In this document: in pieces, positions 10,387-24,258 of the stretch | Position numbering within the stretch: the stretch's first letter is position 1 | Layout: each line of letters begins with the position of its first letter | IMG/VR virus record: IMGVR_UViG_3300032213_003134 | Span: 1 to 45,772 of that record | Strand: one strand, 5' to 3' | Source of the DNA: a virus | Length of the DNA stretch: 45,772 bases | Notes under the pieces: model-generated | What the model saw: only the letters and a program-made list of their open reading frames with translations | Told to the model about the DNA's origin: nothing | The model's database searches: none | Program-made: the position numbers and the translations under genes

Positions 10387-10415
10387 ATTATAAATACTTG
10401 TAATAGCGATGTCAA
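10387..10415 (-). promoter_or_regulatory. Sigma70-type promoter of gene 43
   Basis: Minus strand: TTGACA (10415-10410), a 17-base spacer and TATAAT (10392-10387); a consensus promoter 28 bases before the gp43 start. Its -10 shares bases 10389-10392 with a plus-strand late box. Confidence 0.9.
10389..10396 (+). promoter_or_regulatory. T4-type late promoter box for the plus-strand operon
   Basis: TATAAATA on the plus strand, 81 bases before the first gene of the plus-strand operon. The leader holds a small hairpin (CGATG and CATCG around 10407-10428). No sigma70-type promoter is seen on the plus strand here, so expression should be late and gp55-dependent. Confidence 0.75.
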
Positions 10416-10477: not shown

Positions 10478-10936
10478 ATGTTAAAAAAGCTCATCGTCTG
10501 CGCGGCTTTCGCCGCTTCTTCTGTCTACGCTGCCGATCCCATAGTAACCGATTCAACAAGTCGCAGCACCAGCGAAACCACCACAACGGTTAAATCACCA
10601 CCACCAACTGCCATTGCCCCATCAATCAATAGCCTAAACAGCGATCTCTGCGCTGTGGGCGTGAGCGGCGCTGCTCAAACTCAGATTTTAGGTATCGCCA
10701 TCGGTTCAACCTTTGTTGATAAGAACTGCGAACGTCTAAAACTCAGCAAATACTTATTCGACATGGGCATGAAGGTTGCTGCGGTTGCCACCTTATGTCA
10801 GGACGAACGCGTATTTACTGCCATGATGAATGCCGGTACTCCGTGTCCGGTGGATGGCAAGATCGGTCAGGAAGCCAAGGATATCTGGGATGCTGATCCG
10901 AAACGTCAACCACAAAAAGTAAAGAGTAAAGACTAA
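10478..10936 (+). CDS. Secreted protein, first gene of plus-strand late operon
   Basis: 152 residues starting MLKKLIVCAAFAASSVYAAD: a textbook Sec signal peptide with cleavage expected after VYA. AAAGGAACAAGA precedes the ATG; an earlier in-frame ATG lacks one. After a Thr/Ser/Pro-rich linker (about 22-50) comes a compact domain with four Cys (SDLCAVG, KNCERL, TLCQDE, GTPCPVD) and Gly-rich helices (QTQILGIAIGSTF), fit for disulphides in the periplasm. The C-terminus is basic. I recognise no named family. The stop overlaps the next ATG by one base. Confidence 0.8.
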   Translation: MLKKLIVCAAFAASSVYAADPIVTDSTSRSTSETTTTVKSPPPTAIAPSINSLNSDLCAVGVSGAAQTQILGIAIGSTFVDKNCERLKLSKYLFDMGMKVAAVATLCQDERVFTAMMNAGTPCPVDGKIGQEAKDIWDADPKRQPQKVKSKD

Positions 10937-12459
10937 TGAAAACTCTAGTTGCCCTTGCAGCGGCACTGGTTGTTTCATTGGCTGGTGCTGAAGATCTATC
11001 AACACCTAACCAGATTACGTCGGGTACGGCTCATACCTGGACTGGTGCCACAACTGGTGATATGTCCATGATATGTCCTCCGGGTGGAGGAGCCTGTTCT
11101 GGCGGACCTCAACCACTGTATGATCCAGCTACCAACACCATTCATTTCAGCTATGGTCAGGGCAATGTAGCTCAAACCTTTGCTGTCAATCAGGCTCTGC
11201 AGAATGCCGGAGCAGGAATACAGATTACGGGCTACAACTATACCTGGGACATTCGCAACATGAATGGTGACAATCGTCAAAAAGGTACAGATACTATAAC
11301 TGCCACAGTTACTACAACCAATGGTCAGGGTGCGGTACGTAGAACAGACTCTTGGTCCTATAATACTAAGTTTGACTGGACTACATTTAGTGGTACAGTC
11401 AACTACACCAATCCCGGTCCTGTGTCTCAGTTTGGTAGTCTAACAGTAAAATTTTCTGGTAGTGACAGTGGTTTCTGGGGTGGCTACTTTGGCCCTCAGG
11501 TTAAAGATGTTGGTCTAAGAATGAATTATTCTGCGTCTGATCCTTGTGCCACCAATCCCCTATCATCGCCTAGTTGTGCTGGTTATGAAGCTGCCTACCT
11601 GGCACAGCAATGTTCAATCAATGCCTTGTATAGTCCTAGCTGTCCTGGTTATCAGCAAGCATACCTATCACAGCAGTGTTCAATCAGCGCTTTGTATGAT
11701 TCTAGTTGTCCGGGTTATGCTCAAGCCTACTACAATCAACAATGTAGTTTAAATCCTTTGTATGATCAAGGATGTCCAGGGTATGCTCAGGCCTACTTTA
11801 ACGATCAATGCAAAAAGAACAGTCTCTATGATCGAAACTGCGAAGGCTACAATACCGCCTACGCCATTGCTAATCTAGTGCCTTTGGACCCAGCTGTCAA
11901 TACCGCTGTGAACCAATCATTGTCAGCCACCGCTGCTGCAGATCCGGCTCGGCAAGCCACGCAGGTCATCAAAGACAACAATGTCAACAATGCTATAACT
12001 CCGTCCAGCACTGTGGCGCCAACATCAACCACATCGGTAAATTCTGTGGTGCGCGAACCCAACCCAGAAACTCGCACACCTCCTAAAGAAGAGAAGCGAG
12101 TTGAACGCACACCTAATCCAGAGACTCGTGAAGTGCCTAAAGAGGAGAAAAAAGAAGTACAAACTCCTAAAAAGACTGCAGATGCCAAACGTCGAGCTGA
12201 AGAGGCAATGAAAGCAGCAGCAAAAGCAAGCACTCCTCAAGAAGTAGTTGCAGCCCAGACAGCTATAGTAGGTGGTATGGGTCTACTACCTGGCTTTGAG
12301 AATTATCAGAACAATAGTATACTGGATGCTCAATTCTATAAGTCGAAAGAAATATATTCAAATCAAAAAACAGTTGATAACCGTAATGCTCAAAGGTTTC
12401 TAAATGGAGCTAGTGAGGTTCGTCATCAGATGATGATGGAAGAGCAGTATAGACGGTAA
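10936..12459 (+). CDS. Secreted Cys-repeat protein of plus-strand late operon
   Basis: 507 residues with a signal peptide (MKTLVALAAALVVSLAGAED). Residues 20-200 are beta-rich and Gly/Thr-rich, like a surface or adhesin domain. Residues 204-313 hold five 22-residue repeats, each starting with Cys and containing a second Cys followed by a GY..AY motif. Residues 350-400 carry two copies of an acidic/basic Pro-rich unit (PNPETR with PKEEK). The rest is helical (AEEAMKAAAKAS) with a Tyr/Asn-rich end (QFYKSKEIYSNQ). No family named. It would be exported and disulphide-bonded; binding to the envelope or to other phages is inference. Confidence 0.8.
   Translation: MKTLVALAAALVVSLAGAEDLSTPNQITSGTAHTWTGATTGDMSMICPPGGGACSGGPQPLYDPATNTIHFSYGQGNVAQTFAVNQALQNAGAGIQITGYNYTWDIRNMNGDNRQKGTDTITATVTTTNGQGAVRRTDSWSYNTKFDWTTFSGTVNYTNPGPVSQFGSLTVKFSGSDSGFWGGYFGPQVKDVGLRMNYSASDPCATNPLSSPSCAGYEAAYLAQQCSINALYSPSCPGYQQAYLSQQCSISALYDSSCPGYAQAYYNQQCSLNPLYDQGCPGYAQAYFNDQCKKNSLYDRNCEGYNTAYAIANLVPLDPAVNTAVNQSLSATAAADPARQATQVIKDNNVNNAITPSSTVAPTSTTSVNSVVREPNPETRTPPKEEKRVERTPNPETREVPKEEKKEVQTPKKTADAKRRAEEAMKAAAKASTPQEVVAAQTAIVGGMGLLPGFENYQNNSILDAQFYKSKEIYSNQKTVDNRNAQRFLNGASEVRHQMMMEEQYRR
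11545..11874 (+). repeat. Five tandem 66-base (22-codon) Cys repeats
   Basis: Repeat units start at Cys204, Cys226, Cys248, Cys270 and Cys292 of the 507-residue protein. The consensus is C-S-x-N-x-LYD-x-x-CPGY-x-x-AY-x-x-Q-Q. The two Cys lie 10 residues apart. The DNA units have diverged at third positions, so the repetition is old or under protein-level selection. Confidence 0.85.
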
Positions 12460-13121
12460 TGGATCCTTTATCTGCCTTTGCAGCTGCTCAAACAACCCTT
12501 GCCATGATTCGCAAGGGAGTAGAGTTCTATAAAGAGTGTAAAAAGGCAAATGCAGATGTAAGTGAAATTACTAGTGAAATTACCGGTTACATTGGTAAGT
12601 TCATGGACCACAAGGAGGTTGTATCTGAAGCAGCTCGTAAATCAAAAGCACTGTCAGAAGCACCTCCAGATCCAGGAAAGGCATCAACTCTAAACAGTCA
12701 AGCACTCAACAACGTAATGCTGCAGATACAGCTAGAAAATGCTGAAAAAGAATTACGAGAGATGTTGATATATCAAACACCTGGCCTTGGGGCTGTGTGG
12801 ACCAGATTTCATGATGAGCGAGAACGATTGTTGGTAGTTCATAAACGACAAAGAGAAGCTGCTGAAGAGCAAGAACGAGTAGAAAGAATACTTGCTGCTG
12901 ATAGAGTTAGAATGCGAAAGCAGCGAATAAAAGAGTTATGGGAAGAATTGCATTGGATTATTATGGTTGTTGTAGTATTTGGATTCTATACGGGCTGTAT
13001 ATATTTTATAGTTCAGGATAGAATCAAACAAAGTCCTCACATGGGTACTTGTTTGATCCCAAAAGGATCACCCGGATATAAATCATATAGTAGTCTGCGC
13101 TGGGTAGATTGTGATAATTAA
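12459..13121 (+). CDS. Coiled-coil protein with C-terminal membrane anchor
   Basis: 220 residues starting MDPLSAFAAAQTTLAMI. The body (15-165) is helical and charged, with probable coiled coil near 90-165 (ENAEKELREML, EEQERVERILAADRVRMRKQ). One membrane helix follows (about 166-188, IIMVVVVFGFYTGCIYFIV). The tail of about 30 residues, with two Cys (GTCLIP, WVDCDN), would be periplasmic if the coiled coil faces the cytoplasm. The ATG overlaps the previous stop by one base. No family recognised; the topology suggests a link between cytoplasm and envelope. Confidence 0.75.
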   Translation: MDPLSAFAAAQTTLAMIRKGVEFYKECKKANADVSEITSEITGYIGKFMDHKEVVSEAARKSKALSEAPPDPGKASTLNSQALNNVMLQIQLENAEKELREMLIYQTPGLGAVWTRFHDERERLLVVHKRQREAAEEQERVERILAADRVRMRKQRIKELWEELHWIIMVVVVFGFYTGCIYFIVQDRIKQSPHMGTCLIPKGSPGYKSYSSLRWVDCDN

Positions 13122-13145
13122 AACTAAAACTAGGAGCACAGTAAA

Positions 13146-13778
13146 ATGTCAGACAAAAAAGTAGATGTAAACGCAAAAGTCGATGATCTCGAAGCCGCAG
13201 CGGAAAAATATGCTAGCGCCAACACCGTGATTAGCATCGGTGGCTATGAGTTTACTCCGGCAAAATTGATGATAGCCTTTACCATCGCATCCAGCATACT
13301 CGGCGGTCTCTACGCGTCCTTTGAAGTCTACAAAGACTACATGGACATGAAGACCAAGATTGCAGAATATGTTACACCGGACCTCACGGAAATCTATAAA
13401 AAGATGGAAGTTCTGGAAGCCAGCACCAACAAAACTGTGGAATACAGTCAGGACATTAAAAACGACCTCAAGAGTGATATTCGCAGACTCGAGGGTGTGG
13501 TTGAAAATGTAGAGCGCGACAGCAAGACATCACAGCGCGATACCGACAAGAGCGTGCAAGAAGCTAGAAAAGATGTGCGTGAAACCAAACAAGAAGTAGA
13601 TAAAATTACACGAAGCCTAGAAAAAGACACTGCCGCTCAAAACAAGGAAATTTCACGCAGTGTGGATGTTGCCATACGAGAACTACGTCGAGAAAACGAA
13701 GCTGAAATTAAAAAGCTCCGCAAAGACATGGAAGACAAGATACAAAAAGCCCTGGACAATCCCCTGGCTAACCGATAA
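13146..13778 (+). CDS. Membrane-anchored long coiled-coil protein
   Basis: 210 residues. The N-terminus is charged (MSDKKVDVNAKVDDLEAAAEK), a hydrophobic segment spans about 38-60 (LMIAFTIASSILGGLYASF), and the remaining 140 residues are an almost uninterrupted Lys/Glu/Asp coiled coil (ESVEN-like heptads, e.g. DVRETKQEVDKITRSLEKD). AGGAGCACAGTAAA precedes the ATG. One membrane anchor plus a long rod resembles spanin, tether or fusion-type designs, but size and order are not those of a known phage spanin. A phage-coded envelope rod is the cautious description. Confidence 0.75.
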   Translation: MSDKKVDVNAKVDDLEAAAEKYASANTVISIGGYEFTPAKLMIAFTIASSILGGLYASFEVYKDYMDMKTKIAEYVTPDLTEIYKKMEVLEASTNKTVEYSQDIKNDLKSDIRRLEGVVENVERDSKTSQRDTDKSVQEARKDVRETKQEVDKITRSLEKDTAAQNKEISRSVDVAIRELRRENEAEIKKLRKDMEDKIQKALDNPLANR

Positions 13779-13789
13779 GGAGCATACCT

Positions 13790-14017
13790 ATGTGGTACCA
13801 ACCATTTGAAGTACCTAACATCAACACCAGCATAGAAAAACAGCAGAAATTTTTCTGTGAATTAGTGGATCTGAAACGCAATGGTTGGCGCCATTATAGT
13901 ACGGCCTTCAACGATCTAACCTACAACTACTACAAACCCGTAATGACCAAGTTTGATGCTCAGGTAGAGGAGTTAGCTGAATCAATGAAAACCGTTATAA
14001 GAAAGAAGGTGCTATGA
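13790..14017 (+). CDS. Small hypothetical protein of plus-strand late operon
   Basis: 75 residues (MWYQPFEVPNINTSIEKQQK) without a membrane segment or signal peptide. Helical, rich in aromatic residues (GWRHYSTAFNDLTYNYYK), ending in a basic helix. The pattern looks like a phasin or small helical-bundle protein, but I cannot assign one. The stop overlaps the ATG of the lipoprotein gene by four bases. GGAGCATACCT precedes its start. Confidence 0.75.
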   Translation: MWYQPFEVPNINTSIEKQQKFFCELVDLKRNGWRHYSTAFNDLTYNYYKPVMTKFDAQVEELAESMKTVIRKKVL

Positions 14018-14238
14018 AATATCTAGTTCTACTGCTGGCTCTGACTCTGGCTGGATGTGATCAGTACTATCGTTATCCATGTCAAGACCCAGAAAACTGG
14101 GACAGCAAACAATGCAAAAAACCTTTGTGTGAAGTAAACCGTGATTGCCCTGAGCTAATTTTCAAAGCCGAAGAAGGCAGCACCATGAACAATTTAATTG
14201 ATGCCACACCAGAACCAAAAAAAGGAGGCTGTAAATGA
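14014..14238 (+). CDS. Small outer- or inner-membrane lipoprotein
   Basis: 74 residues beginning MKYLVLLLALTLAGCDQYY. LAGC is a perfect lipobox, so signal peptidase II should cleave before Cys15 and the protein should be lipid-anchored. The mature part is about 60 residues with five more Cys (YPCQDPE, KQCKKP, PLCEVN, DCPELI, GGCK) and no long helix. This size would suit an outer-membrane spanin, but mature o-spanins are usually Pro-rich with few Cys. Asp follows the lipid Cys, the residue known in Enterobacteria to favour retention in the inner membrane. ATGA overlaps on both sides. Confidence 0.75.
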   Translation: MKYLVLLLALTLAGCDQYYRYPCQDPENWDSKQCKKPLCEVNRDCPELIFKAEEGSTMNNLIDATPEPKKGGCK

Positions 14239-14597
14239 GCAAGACCAAAGTTAGTAAACCCGGTGAACGCTACACCGAACAAGAATTGATGGTACGCCTC
14301 AAGGTATTCATTGGTTCATGTCTGGCAGCTACCCTGATTGGCATTGTGTTTGTAGTGTTGTATAGTCTGATATTTGTTACACAGCCCCTAAATGCCATGT
14401 CACCCATTGACGCAAAATTCTTCGAGCTAATTATTCCCCTGGCTACCTTCCTCACCGGTACTTTATCTGGTATCATGCTGGCTGGTACAGGTCGCGAAGC
14501 TGCCATGGCAGGCGCAGAAATGCAACGAGCCGCACACGCAGCAGCCAATCCTGAATCCGATGAAGCCATGGATGACCAAGAACCTGCGCAGAAATGA
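14235..14597 (+). CDS. Two-helix membrane protein, possibly holin-like
   Basis: 120 residues. Two membrane helices at about 23-52 (FIGSCLAATLIGIVFVVLYSLIF) and 66-86 (LIIPLATFLTGTLSGIMLAG) flank a short periplasmic or cytoplasmic loop; the C-terminal 35 residues are Ala/Glu-rich and soluble. The topology and size fit class II holins, but similar proteins in aquatic phages have no proven lysis role. The start overlaps the lipoprotein stop by ATGA with AAAGGAGG upstream. No endolysin gene is visible nearby, which argues against a full lysis cassette. Confidence 0.7.
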   Translation: MSKTKVSKPGERYTEQELMVRLKVFIGSCLAATLIGIVFVVLYSLIFVTQPLNAMSPIDAKFFELIIPLATFLTGTLSGIMLAGTGREAAMAGAEMQRAAHAAANPESDEAMDDQEPAQK

Positions 14598-14796
14598 TCT
14601 TGGTGTAGGTCGATTCTATTCGGCCTACAATAATTCCGGAAGTTTGCTGCTTTATACAACCAGTGGAAAGATGGCAGCGTTTGTTGCGGATCATGCCCGC
14701 CTTGTTGACTCAGATATGAGACTCAGGGTGGGCGGCGATCCCGGTACTGCCGTAGAAAAACGTCACGGAGTTTGGATACGCCTGGTCAATAAATAG
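14572..14796 (+). CDS. Small hypothetical protein overlapping the two-helix gene
   Basis: 74 residues from MTKNLRRNDLGVGRF (14572); four more residues would be added by an ATG at 14560. Either start lies inside the previous gene, in a different frame (overlap 26-38 bases), without a clear ribosome site, so coupling is likely. The sequence has a strand-rich core (SGSLLLYTTSGKMAAFV) and a basic end. No signal peptide, which is unusual in this operon. Function unknown. Confidence 0.6.
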   Translation: MTKNLRRNDLGVGRFYSAYNNSGSLLLYTTSGKMAAFVADHARLVDSDMRLRVGGDPGTAVEKRHGVWIRLVNK

Positions 14797-14815
14797 TGGT
14801 TTCAAGGAGATGATC

Positions 14816-15121
14816 ATGCGTAAAATCGCACTGATGTTACTGTTTTTTGCTGGATCGGTGCAAGCCGAGTTTCAAATAGAAAAATCCATAGTGTGTGATG
14901 ATGTCAAGAAAATATTTGCCTATTTTCAGAAAGATCCATACAACGAAACACCCATGTGGTCAGGCCGAGATATCATTGATCCTTCAGTGCAGCATACCCT
15001 GTTGGTCAATCACCAGACCGGTACCTGGACCATGATTGCCTTTAACGCTGAGATTGGTTGTGTACTAGGTGCAGGAACCAACCCAGTATTAATATCCAAC
15101 AATCTCGGCAATCCTACATGA
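14816..15121 (+). CDS. Secreted protein, last gene of plus-strand late operon
   Basis: 101 residues from the ATG at 14816, six bases after AAGGAG; the ATG at 14810 sits too close to that site. The signal peptide is MRKIALMLLFFAGSVQAEF with cleavage after VQA. The mature domain has two Cys (IVCDDV, EIGCVLG), and strands such as QHTLLVNHQTGTWTMIAF that resemble a small beta sandwich. No family recognised. Its stop overlaps the stop of the convergent DUF2452 gene by eight bases, with no convincing terminator between the two. Confidence 0.75.
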   Translation: MRKIALMLLFFAGSVQAEFQIEKSIVCDDVKKIFAYFQKDPYNETPMWSGRDIIDPSVQHTLLVNHQTGTWTMIAFNAEIGCVLGAGTNPVLISNNLGNPT

Positions 15122-15581
15122 CCTCTCTCCAGGTCTGATCACCCATCCATTGTATTTGACATATTGATTCCAGATGATCGGGTTGTCCGGTGGTCCAGTC
15201 GTCCGGACCCATGATGCTCAATTCACTGCGATTGTCTCGATGGTTGTACAGCAGCCAATAATAGGCACCGGGATATAGCTGCATGTTATAGTGAGCAGCA
15301 TGCACCTGATCAGTGAGCCAGAGTCGACGCTTGAGTTCTTCAGCCTGTTGTTGCAGCACTGTAACCAACTGCATGATGCGATCATATTCCTGCTGCGCAT
15401 GCAGGCGCGCAGCATTGACCATGAGATCTTTTTGCTTGGTGACCGGGATTAGATCAAACTTAGGGCCGCCGGCCTCAGTAGGATATTCAGTTACGTTGCG
15501 ATTGAAGAATGGTATGAGACTACCACCAACCTCAGCATCATAGCTATTACGACCCTTGGCTAGATTGGATTTTTTTGTCAT
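15114..15581 (-). CDS. DUF2452-family protein
   Basis: 155 residues (MTKKSNLAKGRNSYDAEVGG). The central and C-terminal segments (FDLIPVTKQKDLMVNAARLH, QEYDRIMQLVTVLQQQAEEL, WLTDQVHAAHYNMQLYPG and the final IQWMGDQTW) match my memory of the DUF2452 family found in phages and bacteria, of unknown function. A GTG one codon earlier is possible. Mostly soluble; coiled coil near 65-95. It ends convergently against the plus-strand operon. Confidence 0.75.
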   Translation of the reverse strand: MTKKSNLAKGRNSYDAEVGGSLIPFFNRNVTEYPTEAGGPKFDLIPVTKQKDLMVNAARLHAQQEYDRIMQLVTVLQQQAEELKRRLWLTDQVHAAHYNMQLYPGAYYWLLYNHRDNRSELSIMGPDDWTTGQPDHLESICQIQWMGDQTWREVM

Positions 15582-18664: not shown

Positions 18665-18745
18665 TTAATTTGATCCTGGTTGAGGACCGCGACCTTGTAA
18701 CCAATCTACATCTTCATCGGTCATGGGTTGCCATTTATTTGTCAT
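18665..18745 (-). CDS. Possible microprotein (26 aa)
   Basis: The frame MTNKWQPMTDEDVDWLQGRG ends PQPGSN. It overlaps the 3' end of the Hsp20 gene by 11 bases (GATGACAAATAA) and stops just before the GC hairpin at 18644. The sequence, with its DEDVDWL helix and Pro/Gly end, looks protein-like and fills the space exactly between stop and hairpin. There is no clear ribosome site; coupling is required. Function unknown. Confidence 0.4.
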   Translation of the reverse strand: MTNKWQPMTDEDVDWLQGRGPQPGSN

Positions 18746-19223
18746 CGCCCTCTGCTAGAAATTTCTTACCAGCAGTCCCGCGTTCTTTGACTTCAATCTT
18801 CTTTGGCTTCTTGTGTTCTGGAATCAAACGCTCCAGCGCAATCTTAAGCATGCCATTGAACATTTCTGCATCTTTGATCTCAATTTGATCATTGATTACG
18901 AACGTGCGAGTAAAATTACGATTAGCAATACCTTTGAATAGGAAGTCGCCTTCTTCTTCTTTGGCATTGCCACGTACAATCAGCTTGTCTTCATCAAACT
19001 CAATTTCAATGTCTTGACGTGCAAAACCAGCAACTGCCATTTCAATCACGTAGGTATTTTCACCGGTTTTACGATAATTGAAGGGCGGATAATTGGGAAC
19101 GTTCTTGGTTACTTCGTCGTGTAGTTTTGCTAGACGATTGAATTGCTCATCAAAGCCCACGAAGAATTTATCGAAGTCTTTGAATGCAGCTGGGTGCAGA
19201 ATTTTGTCGATTGTAAATGTCAT
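18735..19223 (-). CDS. Hsp20 family small heat-shock protein
   Basis: 162 residues. The alpha-crystallin domain spans about 48-145: PPFNYRKTGENTYVIEMAVA, GFARQDIEIEFDEDKL, then GNAKEE and FTRTFVINDQIE, with the beta9 signature ending in GMLKIALER. The C-terminus has a basic segment KKPKKIEV, which includes the I-x-V anchor motif of sHSP oligomers (IEV). It holds unfolded proteins in a refoldable state; T4-like cyanophages often carry one. AAAAGGAGCAAGC precedes the ATG. The preceding 100-base gap holds only its ribosome site and a hairpin. Confidence 0.93.
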   Translation of the reverse strand: MTFTIDKILHPAAFKDFDKFFVGFDEQFNRLAKLHDEVTKNVPNYPPFNYRKTGENTYVIEMAVAGFARQDIEIEFDEDKLIVRGNAKEEEGDFLFKGIANRNFTRTFVINDQIEIKDAEMFNGMLKIALERLIPEHKKPKKIEVKERGTAGKKFLAEGDDK

Positions 19224-23106: not shown

Positions 23107-24258
23107 TTAAAATGGTATCTCTTCGCCTGGGACGTTTACTGGTGCTGCTGCTTCCGCTACCACCGGAGCATCAACCTTTGTATACAAATCCAGGAAAGCA
23201 GATTTTGTTTCGGCATCGAAGCGATTGGTGCAAAGCTGGATAGCCTTAACACGATCATTGAACATGGCAAACGCCTTGACGATGTGCAGCAAACGACGTG
23301 TACTAATCAATTCATCTACGCCGCCTTCTTCAAAAGTCTTGCGAATAATTTCTGCCCAGCTGGTGAGCTTGACTACAAAATCTTCGTCCAGACAATTCAA
23401 TTCCTTCATCTTCAGCGTCAGGATCTTTTTCTCAATCTTGACATCCGGATATTCCTGCTCCACAGTAATGGCGAAACGTTCCAGAAATGCTTCGTCAATC
23501 ATCTGAGCAGCAATAAAGCGACCGTCTTCGGTACCCTTGCCTTTGGTGTTGGCGGTTGCCACAATATTAAAACCTTCGGCCGGATGCACTACCTCGCCGG
23601 TCTTTTTATTCATATATGGCTTGCCTTCCATGATGGCCTGCAAGCACATCAATTTATTGCTGCCGCGATCACATTCGTCGATCAGAAGAATAGCACCGCG
23701 TTTCATGGCCATCAATACCGGACCTTCACGATACACGACATTGCCGTCAATTAAAGTATTGCCGCCGATGAGATCGTCTTCGTCAGTTTCAATGCTGATG
23801 TTGACTCGCAGCACTTCACGTTTAAGTTCTGCGCACACCTGCTCTACCATGGTAGTCTTACCATTACCACTCAAACCAGTAATGAATACAGGGTAGAAGA
23901 TTTTACTCTGCAGGATCTGCTTCAGATCTTTATGGAAGCCAAAGGCAACATAATTGCTGTCTTTGGTGGGCACAGTATTGTCCAAAGTTGATTCTAATTT
24001 TTTCTGTCTAACCATGGGCAGTACCTGCGCCGACAAGGCAACCTCGGCTACTGGTTTTTCTGCGGTTACATTGAAATGCGACAAATCGTACATGCCGCGA
24101 CCGGATTTCGCTTCGGCATTATCCAAAATAAATCGGGGATAAGGCAGATTTTGTTGACGTGCTTCTTCGATAATTTCACCGCGGCTAACAGCTACGCCGT
24201 AGCCTCGGACTAGGTGATTGACAAACTGTTCTTTGTCGGCTTCTGACCATTTACTCAT
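23107..24258 (-). CDS. cobS-like: MoxR/CobS-type AAA+ ATPase
   Basis: 383 residues. The N-terminal 100 residues include a small-domain motif (YDLSHFNVTAEKPVAE). Walker A GLSGNGKT (128-135) and Walker B AILLIDECDRGSN (about 188-200) are intact; sensor and arginine regions follow (ATANTKGKGTEDG, ERFAITVE). It belongs to the MoxR/CobS group often annotated cobS in cyanophages. Partner: the VWA protein just upstream in transcription (24335-26470), which is the usual MoxR pairing. In phages a role in cobalt insertion is doubtful; a chaperone or remodelling machine for a protein substrate is likelier. Own promoter and terminator. Confidence 0.9.
   Translation of the reverse strand: MSKWSEADKEQFVNHLVRGYGVAVSRGEIIEEARQQNLPYPRFILDNAEAKSGRGMYDLSHFNVTAEKPVAEVALSAQVLPMVRQKKLESTLDNTVPTKDSNYVAFGFHKDLKQILQSKIFYPVFITGLSGNGKTTMVEQVCAELKREVLRVNISIETDEDDLIGGNTLIDGNVVYREGPVLMAMKRGAILLIDECDRGSNKLMCLQAIMEGKPYMNKKTGEVVHPAEGFNIVATANTKGKGTEDGRFIAAQMIDEAFLERFAITVEQEYPDVKIEKKILTLKMKELNCLDEDFVVKLTSWAEIIRKTFEEGGVDELISTRRLLHIVKAFAMFNDRVKAIQLCTNRFDAETKSAFLDLYTKVDAPVVAEAAAPVNVPGEEIPF

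Follow-up and report, generated by a model that had tools for sequence, protein, structure and literature searches.

What is the function of the nine consecutive plus-strand genes at positions 10478-15121 of the IMG/VR virus record IMGVR_UViG_3300032213_003134? The window, i.e. the whole stretch of 45,772 nucleotides analysed here, is a 45.8-kb virus record with T4-type genes, among them a clamp loader (phrog_168) and the major head protein (phrog_138). An original prediction made from the sequence alone had taken the nine genes, here called P1 to P9, for one late machine directed at the cell envelope. We found that the operon consists of two separately conserved modules, module I (P1-P2-P4) and module II (P6-P7), together with the mobile or poorly conserved genes P3, P5, P8 and P9. 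The idea of a single nine-part unit was thus given up, while that of a late, envelope-directed gene set was kept. The latter is well supported: a late promoter box is enriched across loci, export signals and membrane segments are conserved, and genes for lysis often lie nearby.

Two conserved modules behind a late promoter

The features of the operon are as follows (all on the plus strand).

10389-10396, +: T4-type late promoter box TATAAATA, exact match, 82 bases before the ATG of P1
10478-10936, +: P1 (module I), 152 amino acids; signal peptide, short Ser/Thr-rich part, conserved Cys domain at about residues 41-140; phrog_20531, E 3.8e-14
10936-12459, +: P2 (module I), 507 amino acids, signal peptide, exported
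10993-11535, +: P2 head, residues 20-200, jelly-roll like that of sugar-binding domains (AlphaFold2 model, Foldseek, VIA-align)
11542-11877, +: P2 stalk, residues 203-314, five Cys-hairpin repeats of about 22 residues each; predicted local distance difference test (pLDDT) score about 90
12289-12456, +: conserved C-terminal tail of P2, residues 452-507, also present in pelagiphage P2 proteins
12459-13121, +: P3, 220 amino acids, helical, one C-terminal membrane segment; adjoins either module in relatives
13146-13778, +: P4 (module I), 210 amino acids; membrane segment at residues 41-63, long predicted coiled coil, C-terminal NPLAN
13790-14017, +: P5, 75 amino acids; before P1 or before P6 in relatives
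14014-14238, +: P6 (module II), 74 amino acids, Cys-rich lipoprotein (YRYPCQDPxNW...)
14235-14597, +: P7 (module II), 120 amino acids, two-helix membrane protein; phrog_25359, E 1.3e-17
14560-14796, +: P8, 78 amino acids, doubtful open reading frame (ORF) without relatives
14816-15121, +: P9, 101 amino acids, signal peptide; its relative comes after P6-P7 in locus L022

Scans for P2 and P7 yielded a comparison set of 97 loci, on which all nine proteins were mapped. With profiles built from distant members, P4 was found downstream of P1 on the same strand and within 6 kb in 68 of the 69 loci with enough sequence. The P4 proteins are highly variable in length, yet 64 of 67 end in a C-terminal NPL motif. 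P6 immediately precedes P7 in 83 of 85 cases, both exceptions being cut by contig ends, and a relative of P7 is encoded in at least 590 viral contig stretches. P3 and P5, on the other hand, move between the two modules. The original prediction had proposed a check of neighbourhood conservation, and this comparison supplies it in the form of a conserved trio and a conserved pair.

Loci with P1 and P4 include the cultured pelagiphages HTVC023P, HTVC033P, HTVC115P, HTVC202P and Baldr, the myovirus Mosig, a votkovvirus and the roseophages CRP-207 and CRP-810. They were also found in contigs binned in many metagenome-assembled genomes and in two assemblies resembling single-cell genomes. The P1-bearing contigs L133-L162 belong to bins labelled Euryarchaeota, Woesearchaeota, Bacteroidetes, Actinomycetota and others; this spread over many phyla suggests mis-binned phage contigs rather than a cellular origin of P1 (gene content checked for part of them). 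Module II is present in DSL-LC01, whose predicted host belongs to the Actinomycetia (PMC10611076). Its role therefore need not involve an outer membrane, and a role at the cytoplasmic membrane fits P6-P7 better. A DNA search in INPHARED and a tblastn search with P2 gave no match, module I is without a name in the libraries searched, and the freely accessible literature searched contained no description of either module.

The original prediction had placed a late box ahead of the operon. An exact box was indeed found there, which in the window alone is weak evidence (5 matches against 1.85 expected; 5 of 100 shuffles also reach 5). We therefore rely on 34 non-redundant IMG/VR loci with P1, in which matches were counted from 250 bases upstream of an ORF start to 60 bases inside it. 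The exact box occurs near the P1 start in 11 of the 34 loci, compared with 1% of random windows and 2.4% of the remaining ORFs in these loci (13 of 548). The corresponding binomial value of 2e-10 is descriptive rather than a true probability, since the loci are related. For P6 the excess is weaker (5 of 44). Late control of module I is thus well supported.

The anatomy of the operon had been described correctly: all nine ORFs are present, they run opposite to the flanking genes, and one- and four-base overlaps occur. From P1 to P9 the spacings to the next gene are -1, -1, +24, +11, -4, -4, -38 and +19 bases. It is the sole long plus-strand run in the window, with large minus-strand genes on both sides and a gene for an 818-amino-acid DNA polymerase, recognised by inspection, just upstream. 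The claim of three Sec signals, a single lipobox and three proteins with membrane helices was borne out as well. Hydropathy places membrane segments in P3 (from residue 167), P4 (from 41) and P7 (from 24 and 65), and P6 matches the lipobox pattern with LAGC. The signal peptides (P1, P2, P9) and the P4 coiled coil were recognised by eye in the sequence. Support for P8 is poor: it has no clear ribosome-binding site, overlaps P7 by 38 bases and has no homologue in any fetched locus. Elsewhere in the window, the minus-strand gene facing the operon end (15114-15575) matches DUF2452 (PF10504, E 6e-9); 18735-19223 (minus strand) is an Hsp20-like gene (phrog_432), and 23107-24258 (minus strand) matches phrog_249, labelled porphyrin biosynthesis.

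Exported proteins and neighbouring lysis genes

The AlphaFold2 model of P2 (pLDDT 68) consists of a jelly-roll head, the five Cys-hairpin repeats, a disordered linker and a low-confidence tail. In Foldseek and VIA-align comparisons, the latter covering residues 19-199 only, the head resembles the sugar-binding domain of Fbs1 (Z 14.1) and CBM16 (Z 10.7). The predicted head thus has the jelly-roll fold of carbohydrate-binding domains, a fold that does not by itself prove sugar binding. Among the relatives counted the number of hairpins ranges from 0 to 11, and the conserved tail is what links the window's protein to most pelagiphage P2 proteins. The model of P1 is poor (pLDDT 55). Some freshwater relatives of P1 carry hundreds of Asn/Thr/Ser-rich residues ahead of the conserved Cys domain; in L034, L048, L053 and L062 these are some 300-400 residues of repeats, fibre- or amyloid-like by eye.

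Lysis genes adjoin both modules in relatives. In L079, L082, L090 and their relatives, genes for an Rz-like protein, an Rz1-like protein (PF23793) and an endolysin (phrog_181) are followed in this order by P6, P7 and a small membrane protein. The L079-L098 lineage thus has P7 encoded beside the endolysin, an arrangement that the window and many T4-like relatives lack, and endolysin families are found among the P7 neighbours in the non-redundant set. Concerning module I, P1 comes after a GTA_holin_3TM gene (PF11351) in Mosig and has the gene of an Amidase_2 endolysin upstream in HTVC033P, and an M15 peptidase gene directly follows P4 in HTVC023P (one-base overlap) and L158.

The annotated lysozymes of the roseophages CRP-207 and CRP-810 were left out of this evidence, because they are P4 homologues themselves. 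These proteins (L105:3292-3873, CRP-207 gp73; L116:6165-6587, CRP-810 gp51) are membrane/coiled-coil proteins of the P4 family and have no lysozyme match. Class 3 lipase genes (Lipase_3, PF01764) were noticed just downstream of P4 at L139:12971-13705, L140:13575-14285 and L142:11941-12702; membrane lipids are a possible target of a phage lipase encoded next to such a module.

A proposed role in lysis or egress and its alternatives

Since the two gene sets, which recur in many marine and freshwater phages, often stand beside genes for cell lysis, the operon probably helps this T4-like virus of aquatic bacteria to act on the host envelope at the end of infection. The reading that we prefer, with a probability of roughly 40%, is that of a T4-type late operon joining two phage modules in lysis or egress, with P7 as a holin-like protein, P6 as its regulator and P1-P2-P4 as an envelope complex. 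Timing, the exported and inner-membrane parts and the lysis neighbours point to such a role. Going by protein size, membrane segments, position and the close pairing of the two genes, P7 would be a two-helix inner-membrane protein, most likely of holin type, and P6 a Cys-rich protein tethered outside the membrane that would regulate it. P1 and P2 would be exported and P4 would sit in the inner membrane, and the conserved ends of the three proteins most likely dock together. From P2 the variable stalk and head of sugar-binding type, and from P1 the Asn/Thr-rich stretch, may then extend to the cell wall or the outer membrane, which would be weakened, or linked to the inner membrane, at the end of infection.

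Several observations weigh against this reading. P7 has no match among the holin families, and one lineage encodes a further small membrane protein (C24) next to it. The window's own operon contains no lysis gene; the earlier statement that no endolysin is found in it agrees with PHROG and Pfam searches. Many module I loci are adjoined by terminase or tail-fibre genes rather than lysis genes. T4-like phages with module I can carry Rz1 too (8 of 36 records), so that module I is not needed as a spanin substitute there. Finally, P2 itself is adhesin-like, with a variable head of sugar-binding type, a stalk of variable length and a constant tail.

This last point leads to the main rival for module I, surface display or exclusion, which we regard as unlikely but serious. 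P4 would serve as anchor, and P1 and P2 would be exported adhesins whose sugar-binding heads occupy surface glycans. Superinfection might thereby be blocked, released progeny kept off debris, or cells aggregated, as proposed for the curli of pelagiphages; with curli, these phages already possess another exported adhesion system (PMC9599517). The long Asn/Thr/Ser repeats of freshwater P1 proteins would suit such a role, and so does the coexistence of full spanin/endolysin sets with module I in several T4-like records. However, late rather than early control suits exclusion less, lysis neighbours recur, and the position of P2 at the cell surface is an assumption. The original prediction had listed lysis control, exclusion and surface display side by side; the late envelope role stands, and among them lysis or egress is somewhat preferred here.

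A more novel form of the egress role would make P1-P2-P4 a new phage egress machine. Its exported complex would bind sugars, be stapled by disulphides and be held at the inner membrane, and it would break or bridge the outer membrane. T4-like phages would use it beside spanins, and in pelagiphages, which yielded no spanin lipoprotein, it would take their place. We consider this version rather doubtful.

Less credible still is a collection of unrelated late genes (morons) that stand behind one promoter without a common function. The switching of P3 and P5 between modules would agree with it, as would the lack of relatives for P8 and the many genomes in which only one of the two modules occurs in the stretch seen. 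Against this, dozens of contigs carry both modules on a single strand, in one and the same order and inside about 8 kb; L003/L010 has them facing each other at one location.

We consider it improbable that module I directly replaces the Rz/Rz1 spanins, in which case P4 would be the inner-membrane subunit and P2/P1 the outer partner. P4 is a membrane and coiled-coil protein, and no locus has both Rz/Rz1 (found in 18 loci) and module I (found in 64) inside the 8-kb flanks; the PF23793 search gave one weak overlap with module I. Five complete marine phages and S28C10, all of which carry module I, yielded no lipoprotein on the sense strand; the S28C10 module is flanked by a membrane-protein gene on one side and terminase genes on the other. 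The negative association between Rz1 and P1 (Fisher p 0.005) comes from a biased sample. When whole records were searched with a family-specific Rz1 model, Rz1 was detected in the 8 of 36 P1-bearing records mentioned above, and replacement is therefore rejected for T4-like phages; in pelagiphages it may apply. Two of these Rz1-like genes lie in split or interrupted frames, by decay or sequencing error (G002:C1:25979-26205 and G013:C1:61029-61264), and several of the Rz1-bearing records also carry an endolysin of the same family. Furthermore, P1 and P2 have no lipobox and are not lipoproteins, the lipoprotein P6 is tied to P7 and not to P4, and the scanned stretches of pelagiphages without P1 (L111-L114) yielded no lipoprotein either. 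The lysine/arginine count of P4 favours an inside C-terminus in 43 of 67 proteins, against a periplasmic coil, by a method that is not decisive for signal anchors.

In about 13% of phage genomes, many from marine cyanobacteria among them, one survey recognised no means of breaching the outer membrane (PMC6139136). Cultured Pelagibacter and Roseobacter phages and many freshwater T4-like phages have module I in common, an exported gene set that is conserved and late; since cultured phages carry it, a role in lysis, exclusion or adhesion is directly testable. Module II would provide a candidate holin/regulator pair for many environmental phages.

Comparison with known systems

The original prediction had found no likeness to the T4 lysis genes (t, rIII, spanins), and PHROG and Pfam searches agree: over the mature operon proteins no holin, spanin or Cor match was obtained. 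For P1-P4 there was no spanin family match, and P6 gave one of E 0.12 over its signal peptide only. A Cor-type superinfection-exclusion lipoprotein was rejected for P6, as its match to phrog_1119 (E 0.092) covers residues 1-24 only, mostly signal peptide. With Rz/Rz1 (PHROG Rz-like; Pfam LysC PF23793) module I shares a small inner-membrane protein with a predicted coil (P4), exported partners, late expression and a lysis neighbourhood. It differs in that P1/P2 are not lipoproteins, P2 is large with a head of sugar-binding type, no family match exists and true Rz1 coexists with it.

Module II recalls class II holins and periplasmic antiholins (T4 T/RI). By hydropathy P7 is a small protein with two membrane segments, as in a class II holin, and P6 is a small exported Cys-containing protein directly before it. 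In contrast, P7 belongs to no holin family, P6 is a lipoprotein and the sequences are unrelated. T4 T has one membrane segment.

Mu releasin gp25 (DUF2730, PF10805; PMC9239132) likewise combines an N-terminal membrane segment with a helical domain near lysis genes, and the P4 of S28C10 was annotated DUF2730 by its depositors. This candidate was rejected, since no PF10805 match was found at P4 in 14 records. The curli of pelagiphages (type VIII secretion; PMC9599517) are also phage-encoded, exported and possibly surface proteins of marine phages that have moved between phage families. They are different proteins, and CsgG was found in 0 of 31 records tested, many of them fragments. The closest structural likeness is that of the predicted P2 head, which has the jelly-roll fold in common with the sugar-binding domain of Fbs1 and with CBM16 and CBM61. 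Identity is about 13%, and P2 differs from these proteins as a phage-exported, stalked protein.

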